Of a stretch of 51,168 bases of DNA, positions 1 through 51,168 are shown piece by piece. Under the pieces are notes generated by a model. It was not told the DNA's origin, did no database searches, and saw nothing but the letters and a program-made list of their open reading frames with translations. How positions within the stretch are numbered: the first letter of the stretch is position 1; each line of letters opens with the position of its first letter. The DNA comes from Gemmatimonadota bacterium (lineage in GTDB: Bacteria > JAAXHH01), in contig VXWP01000043.1 of NCBI GenBank assembly GCA_009835325.1, positions 1 to 51,168 of the forward strand, written 5' to 3'. Position numbers and translations under genes: made by a program.

Positions 1-3000
1 GAAGCCGACACGCGAGCGCATGCCGATGCCGTAGGCCACCGCGAGCGGCCCGCCCGACAGCTCTTCCATCGTGCGCGGCCCCAGGCCGTTGTCACGCACC
101 AGGCCGCCGTCGACGAATTGGCCCACGTTGGGATAGCCGGCATACTGGTTGGCCTGGGTGGAACTGGTGGTCTGGTCCCAGGTGGCGCCCGCGTCCACGA
201 ACAACGAACCGCGGATCTGCTGAAAGGCCAGCGGCAGCGGCCAGCCGAAGGCGAGGACCTCGATCAGGGGGAACCGGAACTCGGCGTTGACCAGCGCGAC
301 CTTGCTCCCCCAGACGGACCAGTAGTCCGCCCCGCGGAAGTTGAAAGGACCGCCGAATGGATACAGTTCCTGGTCCCGCCCATCGCTGCTCAGTCCGTAC
401 AGGCGGAAGGCGAAGGCGTAACGCTGCAGGACGTTGTAGTAGGCGCGGTAGTCGACGAAGACCCGCGTGAACTGCAACTCGCCGAACGTCGGCGTCACTT
501 CGACGCGGCCACGGGCGCCGGCGATCGGGCCGGTTGGTCCGTACAGCGTGTGATCCGTGACCAGGGCGGCGGTGGGCTGGATGAAGTTGACGCTTCCCAG
601 GCTACCCCGCCTGGTCCGCCGGATACCGAAGTAATTGAAACTGACGTCCACCAGTTCACGGGAACGGTTGACACCCTGGACCCCCAGTTCGAACCGGTTG
701 AACTTGCTGAAAGGACGACTCAGGTAGAACTGGACGCCGCGGTTGATCTGGGTCGTCACCTGGGAAACCCAGGGACTCTGGTAGCCGCGGAGCAGGTCGT
801 AGCTGAACTGGAATGCCGCCACGCTCCAGTTGACGCGCCGCGTCAGATTGGTGTACTGGAGCAGCAGGTTCGCGTCCGTCAGGGATCCGAAAACGTTGGC
901 GCCGACGAGTATCTTGTGGTTGTTCAGTATGTCGCTGAAGGAAAGGACGGAACTGCCCACGAGTCCGACGTGCGTGGAGTACCCGGCGTTCCCCCCCAGA
1001 TAGTCCAGCCCGAATTTGGGGGAGTATTTCCGTTTCGTGAACGTACCGTCGGTCCAGGCGGTGGTATCCGGCAACTCGCCCGCCGGACCGATGCCCCCGG
1101 GTATGGGCCCGAACGGGAACTGCGGCGTCTCCAGGAGGCCGGACCCCGTCAGCGATTCGGGCATCTCCCCGGGCGCGGCCGATTCCGCCGCGGACTCCGC
1201 GGCGGACGTCGTGTCCGGCGGCGCGGTAAGCACGGTCTGGATCGTGGTCACCTTTTCCCGTTCCGGGGTCCCGACCGGTTGTCCCGCCTCGGATGAGGCG
1301 TCCGGCGAAGTGGATGGCGCGGCGTCCTCCGTCACTGCCTGCGAACTTCCCTCCGCGTCCCCGGTAGGGGTTTCTTCCAATGATCTTTCCACGTCCGCGG
1401 AAGCGATTTCTTCCGGTGGTTCGGTTCTCAAGGGCGGTGCCAGTTGCTGCGCATCGGGCGACGCACCGGGCATCGCCGCCTTTTCGTGGTCGTAGGGTTC
1501 CTTCATCAACGACACCGGGTCGCTGATGGCGAACAGGTCGAACCCCCCCCAGGACAGGGCGGAGAAGACCAGGCGGTCCGACTTCTGCGCCCAGCTGATG
1601 GCGGGACCGGCGGCAGTTACATTGGTCACCCCGGTCAGTACGTTGGTAATCTGGTAGGTCTCGCCGTTCTCCATGTCCCGGATGAATATGTTGGACACGC
1701 CGGTGCGATTGGAAATGAACGCGATTTTGGTGCCGTCCGCCGACCACTGCGGCGAAATGCTCTTGCCGATCTGGTCCGGGATCTTCTCGACCTCTCCCGT
1801 TTCCAGGTCATACAGCGCCAGCTGCTGGTATCCGAAGGTGAGCGTTCGGAAATCGGTCACGACGCCCCGGTCCGTGGAAAAGGCGATCGTCTTGCCGTCC
1901 GGCGACCATACGGGGTCCCGGTCCGTGTACCGGTCCCGGGTAAGGGCCTTCAGGTTCCCGCCTTCGGCATCCACCACGTACAGGTCGGACTGCCCTCCCT
2001 GGAGCCCGACGAAGACCAGCTTGCTGCCGTCCGGCGACCAGCTCGGCGACGTGGCGCCGTCGAGATTGACCTTGATGCGCCGGATCACCTTCTTCCTTCT
2101 GACGTCCATGATATACAGGGCGTCCCGCGCCCCCACCTTGGCCGGGAAGGCGATGTACTGCTCATCGGGCGACCAGGAAATGGACGTGGAAAAGAACCGG
2201 AGGGACTCGAAATCGGCCGAGCGCTCGCCTTCGACCAGCTTGGAGATGATCTCGCCGTTGATGGCGGAGGCCAGGTAGATATCGTTGTACAGGCTCCGGT
2301 TGGAAATGAAGACCAGCTTGTCGCCCCGCGGTGAAATCGCCGGGGCGAGGTGCAGGCCCGCCCTGGATTCCCGGACGTCGGTCAGCTGACGGGCGAAGGC
2401 CTGCGGCTTTTCGTAATCCTCGATCTGCGGCAGATAGGTCTTGCGCACATGCTCGTTCCACTCGTCGGACAGCCTTTCGATGTCCTTGCCGATGGACGAG
2501 CGGAAGGCCTCGTTCACGTTCCGCATGCGGGCGGTCTTGCGGAGTATCTCGCCGATCTTCCGATCTCCATACCGGTCGCCGATGTAGGCGAACAGCGCCT
2601 GGCCGAACCGGTAGACGCCGAAACTGTAGTCCATGGCGGGGATGGTCGGGGGCAGATAGCCCTGCAGCGCCGCGTCGCGCAGCCACATGTGGGTATAGGC
2701 GTCGATGCGGCCGAGCGACAGGTATTCGGCCATGCCCTCCATGAACCACAACGGGGCGACGAAGGCCATGGGATTCAGGATGGAGACCCCCGGGCCCGCG
2801 CCGTAGATCACGTCTCCCTGGAAGGCGTGAACGAGTTCGTGGGTGAGTACGTGTTCCAGTTCCGCGTAGGATCCCGTGAAGGGCAGCAGTATGCGGTTCT
2901 TGTTGAACTCCGTCACGCCGCCGGTGCCCTCGCTGATAAAGCCGGGCAGGACGTTGGTCTGCTGGAAATCGGTATGGGAGGCGTACAGGATGATCGGGAT

Positions 3001-47256: not shown

Positions 47257-48141
47257 ATGTCCGACAAATTCTGCCCGCTGAACCTGTCCCCGGAGGAACT
47301 CATCGAGTACACGCCGGACTGGGACGGCGAACGCTTCCCGGACGGACGGCCCAAAGTGCCGGACGGGATCATCGAGCGGATGAAGAACGTCTCCATCACC
47401 CAGGCCTGGGGCGTGATGCGCGGCGCGGGCTACGAACACCAGTACGAGGGCGGCTGGGCGCAGACTCATCCCGGCAAGACGCTCGTGGGCCGGGCGCTGA
47501 CGGCCATGTACATGCCCCGGCGGCCGGCCATGCGCACGGTGATGGAGACGAAAGGCGCCGACGCCGGCTGCATCGGCGACCAGATCTCCTGGCCCATCGA
47601 CATGCTCGTTCCCGGCGACGTCTACGTGGCGGACACCTACGGCAAGGTGGACGAGGGGCCCATCATCGGCGACAACCTGGCCACGGCCATCTACGCCAAC
47701 TCAGGCAACGGCGTGGTCTTTGACGGGTCGGTACGGGACCTGGAAGGCATCGAGGAACTGGAGGATTTCGCCTGCTTCGTCCGGGGCTGGCACCCCTCCT
47801 ACGCCTCGCCCACGATCATGCTCCTGGGCGTCAACACCGCGGTGCGCATCGGCCAGGCCACGGTCATGCCCGGCGACGTCGTCCTGGGCAAGCGCGAAGG
47901 CGTCGTCTTCATCCCGCCCCACCTCGCGGAGACCGTGGTGAAGACCTCCGAACTCGTCCAGCTGAGGGATATGTTCGGCAAGCAGCGGCTGCGGGAGGGG
48001 AAATACACGCCCGGCCAGATCGACGACCGTTGGACGGACGAGATGGAGGTGGATTTCTCGGAATGGCTGGAAGGCCACATGGACGAACTGCCGGTCCCGA
48101 AGTCGGCCATCCAGGACCTGCTGAAGGAACGGACGTGGTGA
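47257..48141 (+). CDS. RraA-family aldolase-like protein
   Basis: 294 residues, longer than E. coli RraA (161). DAGCIGDQISWPIDM, GDVYVADTYGK, IIGDNLATAIYANSG and FDGSVRDLEGI match the family; the Arg-Asp of GSVRD contributes to the metal/oxo-acid site in the HMG/CHA aldolase relatives. It may be an aldolase or decarboxylase of a 2-oxo acid rather than an RNase E inhibitor. GAGGAG lies upstream of the ATG. A 19-bp tandem duplicate covers its stop codon. Confidence 0.85.
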   Translation: MSDKFCPLNLSPEELIEYTPDWDGERFPDGRPKVPDGIIERMKNVSITQAWGVMRGAGYEHQYEGGWAQTHPGKTLVGRALTAMYMPRRPAMRTVMETKGADAGCIGDQISWPIDMLVPGDVYVADTYGKVDEGPIIGDNLATAIYANSGNGVVFDGSVRDLEGIEELEDFACFVRGWHPSYASPTIMLLGVNTAVRIGQATVMPGDVVLGKREGVVFIPPHLAETVVKTSELVQLRDMFGKQRLREGKYTPGQIDDRWTDEMEVDFSEWLEGHMDELPVPKSAIQDLLKERTW

Positions 48142-48164
48142 GGGAGAACGGACGTGGTGAGGGA
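48127..48164. repeat. 19-bp perfect tandem duplication over the RraA-family stop codon
   Basis: GAACGGACGTGGTGAGGGA is present at 48127-48145 and 48146-48164. The first copy holds the last codons and the TGA stop. Confidence 0.9.
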
Positions 48165-48171
48165 GACTACG

Positions 48172-48378
48172 TCAGGCACTCACTTTCGGCCTGCGCTCAA
48201 AAGCGAATTCCATGATGTTCGCGTTTTCTTCCGCGTGTTCGATGGTCATTGAGACGAGATTGCCCTCTTCATCAAGGTCCATGTAGACGTTCTCGGACAT
48301 CTCCTGCGTCTCCACCGCGGCACTATCCAGGAATACGATGTGCAGCGTGTCCGTATCTTCAAAGTAGATGATCTTCAT
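48172..48378 (-). CDS. DUF2283-family small protein
   Basis: 68 residues, normal for DUF2283. MKIIYFEDTDTLHIVFLD, then VYMDLDEEGNLVSMTIEHA, is the family pattern of short beta strands. Function is unknown. AAGG lies 8 bp before the ATG. It is convergent with the RraA-family gene and divergent from the HerA-like gene, at the edge of the AT-richer segment. Confidence 0.85.
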   Translation of the reverse strand: MKIIYFEDTDTLHIVFLDSAAVETQEMSENVYMDLDEEGNLVSMTIEHAEENANIMEFAFERRPKVSA

Positions 48379-48428
48379 CTTGAAACCTTCCTGATAGAAC
48401 TATTTCGATACACACTTAGTTCATTGCT

Positions 48429-48459
48429 TGACACAATCCCAGTCCTAAACAATGTTATG
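48429..48459 (+). promoter_or_regulatory. Possible promoter of the HerA-like gene
   Basis: TTGACA at 48429-48434 with TGTTAT at 48454-48459 (19-bp spacer), about 60 bp before the chosen ATG. The hexamer is perfect but the spacing is long. Confidence 0.35.
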
Positions 48460-48517
48460 CCGTTATTGACTCACGTCGACAACACAGTCTTACCGTTTAG
48501 TGCTGGGGGGTATTTCA

Positions 48518-50704
48518 ATGCCGAATAGTAACGATCGTGAACCTGGGTTCTTAACTCAGATCGGCGAAGATATTGGTGAAGAAAAGGAAACCAGTGCGGT
48601 AGATGCGATCACGAATTTGATACAACCGGATCAGTATGTCGGCGATTTACTCTCATTAGACTATGAGTCCGCCGACATACTCATCCACGACAGCCATAGA
48701 GTCAGGGTAAATGGTATTCCTTTCGGCTGTCTGCTTATCGCAAGCAGAATCACACCCGATGGACTTACCACAAACGATCCGGGTGACAGCCGTGCTTCCC
48801 TACTGCTATTAAGAGTGTCTGGAAACACAAGACTTAACTCGGACATAGACTTAAACAAAGCCAGGTTTGAAATCGTACAACGGTCTAACGATACTGAACG
48901 TAACTATGACGATGCTAGGCAAACCGACCAATTCACATTAAACCTCCTCCGTTACACTGGAGTTCGTTGTCGGATTTTGGGTACGTTTAGGGTTTTTCGT
49001 TCAGACCAGAATGAAGAATGGCAGCTACATTTTGGTGCTGATATCGACAACTTCTATGCTGGCCAAGGGATGAAAATATACAAGCCTAACGGTGATGCAT
49101 TGAAGACAATCGTTAACTTTCGAAGTAGCACAACAATTCAGAATAACAAGTCGCGAATTGGCCGTCTACGCTACTCGGCTTCGAATAAAGACGATCAAAC
49201 ACCAGAATCTGTACCGATTGAAATAGCAGCCGATGACTTTATTGCTCAACGTACCGCGCTTTTTGGAATGACACGAACAGGTAAGTCAAATACCACGAAG
49301 ACGATCGCATCTGCTTTATTCAATCTACGACAGGCGGATTCCAAAACCTGTGTTGGTCAGTTGATTTTCGACCCAAACGGTGAATACGCTAATGACAATC
49401 CCCAAGACCAGGGTTGTATTCGCAACTTGAAGTACACGAGTCCAGAATACATCGACGATGTGCATACATACGGTTCATTTAGTCACCCATACGATGAAGA
49501 TCGCCATATAACTAAATTTAACTTCTACGGCGAAAACGAGCCAACTTCACTACCTTCCAGTAAGGATGTGCTTGATGACGCACTGCGAACGCTCTTACAG
49601 GGAAAACAAATAATCAATGACGCGTTAGCTGAAGAGACAGCAGGATACATAAAGGCGTTCTGTAACGCGGACTTGTCCACAACAGAAGAGCACGTAATTA
49701 ACTACGGCGAATACACACGATTACGACGACGCCTATTCGTGTATCGCTGTATTCTGGCAGAATCGGGATTCGAGCATACCGGAACTGCAAATGCTAGAGG
49801 ATTATTCAAAGCGGACCTCAGAAATCTGATGGGTAATTCGGAGGACCTAAAACAGTATGTACACTTACTCAATAATGGTGAAATGGAGTGGGAGGTCGCC
49901 GGTAATTTCATAAAAGCATTTGCTCAATGGGTAAAAGAATCAGCATTCAACGCATTTGATACTGCTTATGCTATAGATCATGATGGGCGGAATTGGAGCG
50001 ATCCGCACCTTCTGGGACTTCTCAAATTCTACGACGATACTCGTGCACGCTCAATTACCCAAAATACACGAGTATGGCATGATCTGAGTTCTACTGCGGA
50101 TTATGCTGATACCATTGTCGAGCAAGTCCGAGACGGAAAGCTTGTAATAGTTGATCAGCTTCTGGGAGATCCTGCGATGAATCGCCAAGCTGCTGAGCGG
50201 ATCGCACGTAGGTTGTTCCAAGAACAGCAGCGGTCCTTCAGCCAACCGAAAATCGACCCTGATACCAATGAAATTGTTCAGCCGCCACCAGTTATCGTAT
50301 ACGCGGAGGAAGCCCATACGTTGCTTCCCAAAGCGAGTGAAGATGACAGTAACAACATCTGGGCTAGAATTGCCAAGGAAGGTGCTAAATTCAACATTGG
50401 CATGGTATACTCTACCCAAGAACCGTCATCATTACAGACTAACATTCTGAAGAACACCGAGAACTGGTTTATTGCTCATCTAAACAACACAGATGAAACA
50501 AAACAAGTCAGTAAATTCAACGACTTTGATGACTTCACAAGTAGTATTATCAATGTTGCCGAAGCCGGGCTAATTAAAGTAAGGACCCGGTCAAGCTATT
50601 ATACGATTCCAGTCCACATGGACCTATTCGAAGCACCCACTGCACCAGAGAATGTGGACAATCAAGAAACAGTTAGCGATTCCAGTACAGACGATGATAG
50701 GTAG
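48518..50704 (+). CDS. HerA-like DNA translocase ATPase (DUF87 type)
   Basis: 728 residues from the ATG at 48518, preceded by GGGGGGT; an in-frame GTG is at 48500. A beta-barrel-like HAS domain (about 35-220) precedes the ATPase. Walker A is GMTRTGKS at 250-257, Walker B-like VIVYAEEAH at 592-600, and STQEPSSL comes shortly after. This order is typical of HerA hexameric translocases that pump DNA and work with NurA or other nucleases. The sequence is visibly AT-richer with codons such as TTA and ATA, unlike its neighbours, so transfer is likely. A probable nuclease gene follows after 23 bp. Confidence 0.85.
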   Translation: MPNSNDREPGFLTQIGEDIGEEKETSAVDAITNLIQPDQYVGDLLSLDYESADILIHDSHRVRVNGIPFGCLLIASRITPDGLTTNDPGDSRASLLLLRVSGNTRLNSDIDLNKARFEIVQRSNDTERNYDDARQTDQFTLNLLRYTGVRCRILGTFRVFRSDQNEEWQLHFGADIDNFYAGQGMKIYKPNGDALKTIVNFRSSTTIQNNKSRIGRLRYSASNKDDQTPESVPIEIAADDFIAQRTALFGMTRTGKSNTTKTIASALFNLRQADSKTCVGQLIFDPNGEYANDNPQDQGCIRNLKYTSPEYIDDVHTYGSFSHPYDEDRHITKFNFYGENEPTSLPSSKDVLDDALRTLLQGKQIINDALAEETAGYIKAFCNADLSTTEEHVINYGEYTRLRRRLFVYRCILAESGFEHTGTANARGLFKADLRNLMGNSEDLKQYVHLLNNGEMEWEVAGNFIKAFAQWVKESAFNAFDTAYAIDHDGRNWSDPHLLGLLKFYDDTRARSITQNTRVWHDLSSTADYADTIVEQVRDGKLVIVDQLLGDPAMNRQAAERIARRLFQEQQRSFSQPKIDPDTNEIVQPPPVIVYAEEAHTLLPKASEDDSNNIWARIAKEGAKFNIGMVYSTQEPSSLQTNILKNTENWFIAHLNNTDETKQVSKFNDFDDFTSSIINVAEAGLIKVRTRSSYYTIPVHMDLFEAPTAPENVDNQETVSDSSTDDDR

Positions 50705-50727
50705 CATCACTATCTGGGAATAATACC

Positions 50728-51168
50728 ATGCCGTATGTCAATGAAAGAGCGACGGGAGACTCATTGTGGCGACTCGAAGAAAACGAGAGTGTCCGTCAAT
50801 TTAAGGGGGTAATTCGAACTCGAGATCCTCAGGAAAACCAAGATTTTCCATCTGTCGTGTCTCCTCCACGTAGGCAAAAGGTGATACGAAGGATCATAGC
50901 AATTGATGGGTCATCCGTAACAATGAGAGTGCAGAATGGATTCCCTAAAGCCGAGGCAGCATTGTTTAACGCTGCTGTAATTGTGATCAAAATTGATGAA
51001 CTGCTGAACTTCGAAACCGAACGTATCCCTAGTCCCAGACAACTTCGTGATCTCGAAAAAGTCTATACCATGAGTGCGGTTCTTCCTGGACCCAATGTCA
51101 CTGGTACTTCGAAGGAGGATGACACACCAAAAAAGTTCTTTCGTTCAACCGTTTGCAAAGAAATGAAC
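50728..51168 (+). CDS. Probable NurA-like nuclease (3' end cut off)
   Basis: At least 147 residues, open to the right edge. IIAIDGSSVTMRVQNGFPKAE at about 61-81 resembles the first conserved NurA block, with Asp65 of DGS as the expected metal ligand, and NAAVIVIKIDELL follows. NurA is a nuclease that acts with HerA. The later catalytic motifs lie outside the window, so the call rests on this block and on its place 23 bp after the HerA-like gene. It could also be another RNase H-fold partner. Confidence 0.55.
   Translation, partial: MPYVNERATGDSLWRLEENESVRQFKGVIRTRDPQENQDFPSVVSPPRRQKVIRRIIAIDGSSVTMRVQNGFPKAEAALFNAAVIVIKIDELLNFETERIPSPRQLRDLEKVYTMSAVLPGPNVTGTSKEDDTPKKFFRSTVCKEMN

Follow-up and report, generated by a model that had tools for sequence, protein, structure and literature searches.

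The TdpAB complex restricts phage DNA and is restrained by phosphorothioate marks that come from TdpC. Like the cassette analysed here, TdpAB(C) (8wet, 8wfd) unites a HerA-type motor, a NurA-type nuclease and a DNA-modification gene, and TdpA and TdpB, two subunits of one complex, are the nearest solved relatives of the HerA and NurA proteins of the cassette. The archaeal and Deinococcus HerA–NurA pairs share both folds and the adjacency of the two genes with the cassette, for which the same architecture of a hexameric pump and an RNase-H-like nuclease is expected. These pairs have been discussed as DNA-repair complexes with no linked methyltransferase (PMC9960219, PMC12977600). The Deinococcus complex consists of a HerA hexamer and a NurA dimer, and end resection has been reported for it (PMC9960219), whereas a 2026 study of Thermococcus HerA-NurA considered direct end resection unlikely and suggested a role in defence (PMC12977600). 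In the SIR2–HerA (Nezha) and DUF4297–HerA systems, a HerA motor is likewise paired in defence with a nuclease or NADase effector. Type I, type III and BREX systems resemble the cassette in combining an amino-methyltransferase with an ATP-driven motor and a nuclease.

The window (the whole stretch of 51,168 nucleotides that was analysed) is the entire contig C43 of a genome of 3.68 Mb in 119 contigs. Bases 1 to ~48.0 kb are ordinary chromosome of ~64% GC. As C43 stops inside the second gene of the cassette, the right edge of the window is a contig end and not a biological border. The features at this end, and on the contig C41 in which the cassette goes on, are as follows (strand in brackets).

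47257..48141 (+): RraA-like gene, native flank, conserved genus-wide at this site (Pfam RraA-like, 6e-20)
48172..48378 (-): DUF2283 gene, native flank, its start abutting the left breakpoint (Pfam DUF2283, 3.6e-15)
48385..51168 (.): the portion of the low-GC insert that lies in C43, 44.6% GC, continued in C41 bases 1 to ~2072
48518..50704 (+): herA-like gene, 728 aa from the ATG at 48518 (Pfam DUF87, 6e-11)
50728..51168 (+): 5' third of a nurA/tdpB-like gene, 147 of ~449 aa, open at the contig end (from identity to the homologue L057)
C41, 1 to ~2072-2077 (.): right part of the cassette, with the nurA remainder and the methyltransferase gene (L056:906-2063), followed by native flank (from alignment with congeners)

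The initial annotation had described the end of the window as foreign-looking DNA with a sharp change in composition, and its counts proved exact (24 G/C of 60 at bases 49081-49140, 44 of 60 at 47521-47580). From 48385 onwards GC content is 44.6%, compared with 63.9% for bases 1-48000 (SD 3.0, minimum 56%; 500-bp windows), and so AT-rich a stretch is out of keeping with the rest of the genome. Codon use changes with it, GC3 being 0.38-0.43 in the cassette genes and 0.84-0.91 in the adjoining native genes. In alignments with the examined congeners, similarity is gone at the left breakpoint (48384) or earlier. The region to the left of it is matched in 11 congeners and the NurA family in none of these 11, and the DNA of the DUF2283 flank is conserved in two of the genus (G003 and G008). 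By GC, GC3 and absence from the site in the examined congeners, the low-GC stretch is confirmed as foreign DNA. No clear target-site duplication was found at the cassette borders. The suggested search for mobility genes found no tRNA in the window or in the scanned C41 and congener stretches, and no integrase or relaxase accompanies the window copy, which is a bare three-gene cassette. Near the insertion border, a perfect 19-bp tandem duplication (GAACGGACGTGGTGAGGGA twice, window 48127-48164) spans the stop codon of the RraA-like gene.

To follow the cassette past base 51168, as the initial annotation had advised, we compared the contig ends with the closest complete homologue of the second gene (L057, 449 aa). 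The fragment in the window corresponds to residues 1-147 at 76% identity. Contig C41 opens with a 301-codon open frame that carries on the gene (L056:1-906) and corresponds to residues 149-446 at 84% identity, leaving one codon missing between the contigs. Each half of nurA is single-copy in the genome. In the congener G008, the DNA after the breakpoint matches the start of C41, and native flank resumes in C41 at about 2072-2077 with 90-94% identity to G002, G003 and G008; matches to the congeners' right flank start at about 2077-2089. Since the two contig ends lie no more than a codon apart in a single gene and the flanks agree on either side, it is close to certain that C43 and C41 are adjacent, although no read spans the gap. 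A chimeric contig was considered as the source of the GC jump and rejected, as C41 holds the syntenic right flank as well as the cassette remainder.

The complete element is thus a HerA–NurA–methyltransferase cassette of three genes and ~4.9 kb, with 45% GC against 64% for the host. The two-protein DNA-processing complex that had been proposed from the window stands as far as the HerA and NurA pair is concerned, but the third gene lies on C41 and was out of its sight. With a methyltransferase as third gene, a system resembling restriction-modification becomes the preferred reading, in place of end resection or of a two-gene pair of HerA and nuclease. The suggestion that the pair opens a defence island beyond the right edge needs correcting: no large island starts here, as the cassette has three genes and ends ~2.07 kb into C41. 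The wider site is, however, occupied by other defence genes in congeners. At the same site, G010 carries a type I restriction-modification system (restriction enzyme and specificity gene) and an AAA ATPase (L044:394-6275), and G001 carries a HEC-01 candidate defence pair (L045:388-2189). The site beside the RraA-like gene is a genus-level defence hotspot. Directly to the right of the cassette lies a DUF4143/AAA_14 ATPase gene (L056:2085-3338; 56% GC; PADLOC PDC-S01, 4e-78), for which the congener stretches of G006, G007 and G004 gave no match.

The first gene, for which a GTG at 48500 is a possible alternative start, was correctly annotated as a HerA-like translocase (DUF87 6e-11; Foldseek HerA/TdpA 1e-25). 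It lies exactly 23 bp from the second gene, and the motifs named for the pair are all present: GMTRTGKS (Walker A, 49265-49288) and VIVYAEEAH (Walker B region, 50291-50317) in HerA, and DGS in the nuclease. The ATPase core is intact in Walker A, Walker B and the sensor Q, and K256, S257, E597, E598 and Q634 are among the residues invariant in an alignment of 41 HerA homologues. A profile search led to TdpA (8wet, E 7e-28). The AlphaFold model of the window HerA (pLDDT 84.8) gave Foldseek matches to TdpA at 9e-26 and to archaeal HerA-NurA at 2e-20; across HerA, TdpA and SIR2-HerA chains, values ranged from 1e-17 to 1e-25 with a probability of 1.00. The model also superposes on archaeal HerA and on the SIR2- and DUF4297-associated HerAs. 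Profile and modelled structure agree that the nearest solved relative is TdpA. Against the NCBIfam HerA_antiphage models, the protein scores 42-55 bits where 800 or more are required.

The identity of the second gene was settled by structure comparison alone. Pfam and NCBIfam gave no match for the window fragment, a PDB sequence-profile search with NurA found nothing, and PADLOC has no models for NurA. The Pfam NurA profile (PF09376), recommended earlier as a check, matched neither the fragment nor the L057 protein. The AlphaFold model of L057 (pLDDT 89.6) had TdpB or NurA entries as its best 14 PDB matches, with TdpB at the top (5e-8), and every match below 1e-3 was TdpB or NurA. As modelled on this nearest complete homologue, the second gene encodes a NurA-fold RNase-H-like nuclease, in line with the probable NurA-like nuclease of the initial annotation. 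The PF09376 miss is a limitation of the sequence model; with a cut-off of 21, distant cyanobacterial homologues score 23.7 and 21.0. The catalytic-type DGS lies at 50905-50913, and, at positions read from the alignment of 46 NurA sequences alone, D60, D207 and E213 are invariant and D261 is conserved in more than 90%.

The third gene encodes a methyltransferase of 385 aa (L056:906-2063; Pfam N6_N4_Mtase, 1.4e-13), its frame opening on the final base (906) of the stop codon of the nuclease gene. DPFxG and TSPPY are present in 40/40 aligned methyltransferases (with C or A allowed after DPF). Catalytic motifs of the DPFxG/TSPPY type are usual in amino-methyltransferases that modify N4 of cytosine or N6 of adenine, and the cassette enzyme is accordingly predicted from its motifs to be one of these. 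No clear hypervariable target-recognition block was seen in the alignment, where no 20-residue block exceeds an entropy of 2.6 bits, and conservation in the central insert is close to that in motif I. A restriction system under diversifying selection would not usually keep this insert so constant, which counts against a restriction-modification reading; the lack of a clearly hypervariable recognition domain might mean that one target is shared across the family.

Among 84,980 species genomes scanned, 364 relatives were found, of which the best 80 were analysed. The methyltransferase adjoins HerA–NurA in all 74 loci of these 80 in which the contig continues past NurA; in the other six, the contig breaks off at herA, a short way past it or within nurA. 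The order HerA–NurA–methyltransferase holds in 73/74, the exception being L128 with the methyltransferase first, and the median gaps are +3 and -4 bp. Pairwise identities correlate at 0.91 for HerA/NurA, 0.88 for NurA/methyltransferase and 0.82 for HerA/methyltransferase, values that arise in part because the rows share ancestry. The three genes co-evolve in near-obligatory linkage. No fourth conserved gene was found beside the cassette, no family recurring in more than 4 loci, and a PADLOC scan of neighbouring genes across loci found scattered defence genes with no known family strongly enriched.

The HerA tree of the best 80 of 364 relatives intermixes at least 22 phyla, comprising bacteria and Methanoperedenaceae; further relatives are one Halobacteria plasmid and one Lokiarchaeota contig. 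Closest to the window HerA are relatives in a Latescibacterota MAG (80-81%) and in Dehalococcoidia MAGs. Cultured carriers include Ruegeria sp. 2205SS24-7, Psychrobacter lutiphocae and Vreelandella massiliensis. Among the window's own relatives the cassette is rare, occurring in 2/288 genomes and no other congener, and its GC lies below that of the flanks in 55/60 loci. With 22 phyla mixed, GC low against the flanks and carriage by phages (see below), the cassette spreads horizontally.

These distributions bear on the proposal that the cassette is a horizontally acquired complex for DNA end resection or recombinational repair, in which the methyltransferase is incidental. The HerA and NurA folds are indeed common to the archaeal and Deinococcus complexes, and end resection is on record for Deinococcus NurA-HerA (PMC9960219). 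However, the methyltransferase adjoins the pair in every testable locus and co-evolves with it, no further gene family, whether for repair or for anything else, recurs beside the cassette, and its distribution is patchy, mobile and phage-borne. The Thermococcus study, too, is doubtful of end resection and favours a role in defence (PMC12977600). We consider the repair proposal quite unlikely.

Phages and plasmids carry variants of the same core. In the temperate Vibrio phages PQ189371 (L141:1-5750) and PQ189353 (L142:1-5751), integrase, HerA and NurA (profile E 1e-80) lie in the lysogeny module, together with a D12/Dam-like adenine methyltransferase on the opposite strand. In PQ189353, herA is annotated as two overlapping ORFs. 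A comparison of the phage Dam-like enzyme with the cassette methyltransferase showed the two to be unrelated. The phage enzyme could be an ordinary phage methylase, so the arrangement hints at interchangeable modification modules but does not prove them. Three Nostocales plasmids (L021:11617-15294, L022:11617-15297, L023:11618-15294) carry an XRE-type regulator, HerA and NurA with no adjoining methyltransferase, possibly a regulated, methyltransferase-free subtype. Such pairs fit a restriction-modification reading less neatly, and imply either another source of the mark or a second use of the pair. The Deferribacter megaplasmid pDF308 (L025:10797-17270) has the order methyltransferase–HerA–NurA, and its herA is split by an inserted IS200/IS605 tnpA–tnpB.

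Occurrence on plasmids and in a lysogeny module would also fit a module for mobile-element maintenance or for plasmid or phage DNA processing (segregation, transfer, superinfection exclusion) rather than host defence. We regard this as very improbable, given that many of the genome-collection loci sit on long chromosomal contigs and that the window copy is without integrase, relaxase or tRNA. The methyltransferase-less Nostocales plasmids are also compatible with abortive infection of the SIR2-HerA/DUF4297-HerA type, in which phage cues would trigger indiscriminate cutting by NurA and the methyltransferase would protect partly or tune toxicity. In the structural comparison, defence HerAs do rank directly behind TdpA and HerA-NurA. 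This alternative nevertheless seems unlikely, as the effector is NurA/TdpB and not SIR2 or DUF4297, and the constant methyltransferase points to discrimination of self from non-self by modification and not to a trigger.

Taken together, we think it likely that the cassette was horizontally acquired, into a site that is empty of it in the checked congeners, and that it works as an ATP-dependent restriction-modification system. The methyltransferase would methylate the N4 amino group of cytosine or the N6 amino group of adenine at a target in the host's own DNA. HerA, as a hexameric ring capped by a NurA dimer in the stoichiometry of the solved HerA-NurA complexes, would thread incoming double-stranded DNA and feed it into the RNase-H-like active sites of NurA, resulting in nicking and degradation. 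Methylated host DNA would be spared, with the mark blocking loading, translocation or cutting, as modelled on phosphorothioate, which is thought to protect host DNA from TdpAB. Antiphage activity is what we infer for the cassette from the hotspot site, the phage carriage, the likeness to TdpAB and the Thermococcus study.

Despite this likeness, the cassette differs from the described systems in several respects. Its proteins are 15-18% identical to TdpA and TdpB in structural alignments, and its HerA has 728 aa where TdpA has 586. Instead of TdpC-type phosphorothioation, it modifies by a SAM-type amino-methyltransferase (DPFxG, TSPPY); no tdpC was found beside HerA–NurA, the third gene being an N6_N4-type methyltransferase with no other family recurring. 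As it departs from Tdp at the modification gene, we do not file it there. Nor is it filed with SIR2-HerA or DUF4297-HerA, two of the families proposed earlier for profile searches, because the partner is by structure NurA and no SIR2 or DUF4297 effector is present; unlike these systems, it also has a modification gene. In contrast to type I, type III and BREX, its motor is a HerA/FtsK-class ring and not an SF2 helicase or BrxC, and none of the type I and BREX genes HsdS, PglZ and PglX is in the cassette. PADLOC-DB 2.0.0 holds no such system and gave generic matches only, to HerA and the methyltransferase, with none for the nuclease. A described HerA–NurA–methyltransferase trio was not found in the open literature, subscription papers and REBASE lying outside the scope of our search. 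The cassette is best called a Tdp-like, methylation-based restriction-modification variant, and a prior description is possible.

Whether HerA–NurA is a repair or a defence machine is disputed, and with a conserved DNA-modifying third gene the defence reading becomes open to direct test. The trio ties archaeal-type HerA–NurA to restriction-modification and to Tdp. More tentatively, one restriction core, a HerA/FtsK-class pump with a NurA-class nuclease, may replace the helicase-nuclease of type I/III systems and swap its self-marks, with an N4/N6-type methyltransferase in most lineages, a Dam-like methyltransferase in phages and phosphorothioation in Tdp, and may thus form a widespread undescribed class of restriction-modification. 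As this small cassette occurs in at least 22 phyla, culturable species included, while PADLOC 2.0 lacks it, a whole defence class is probably undercounted in genome surveys.
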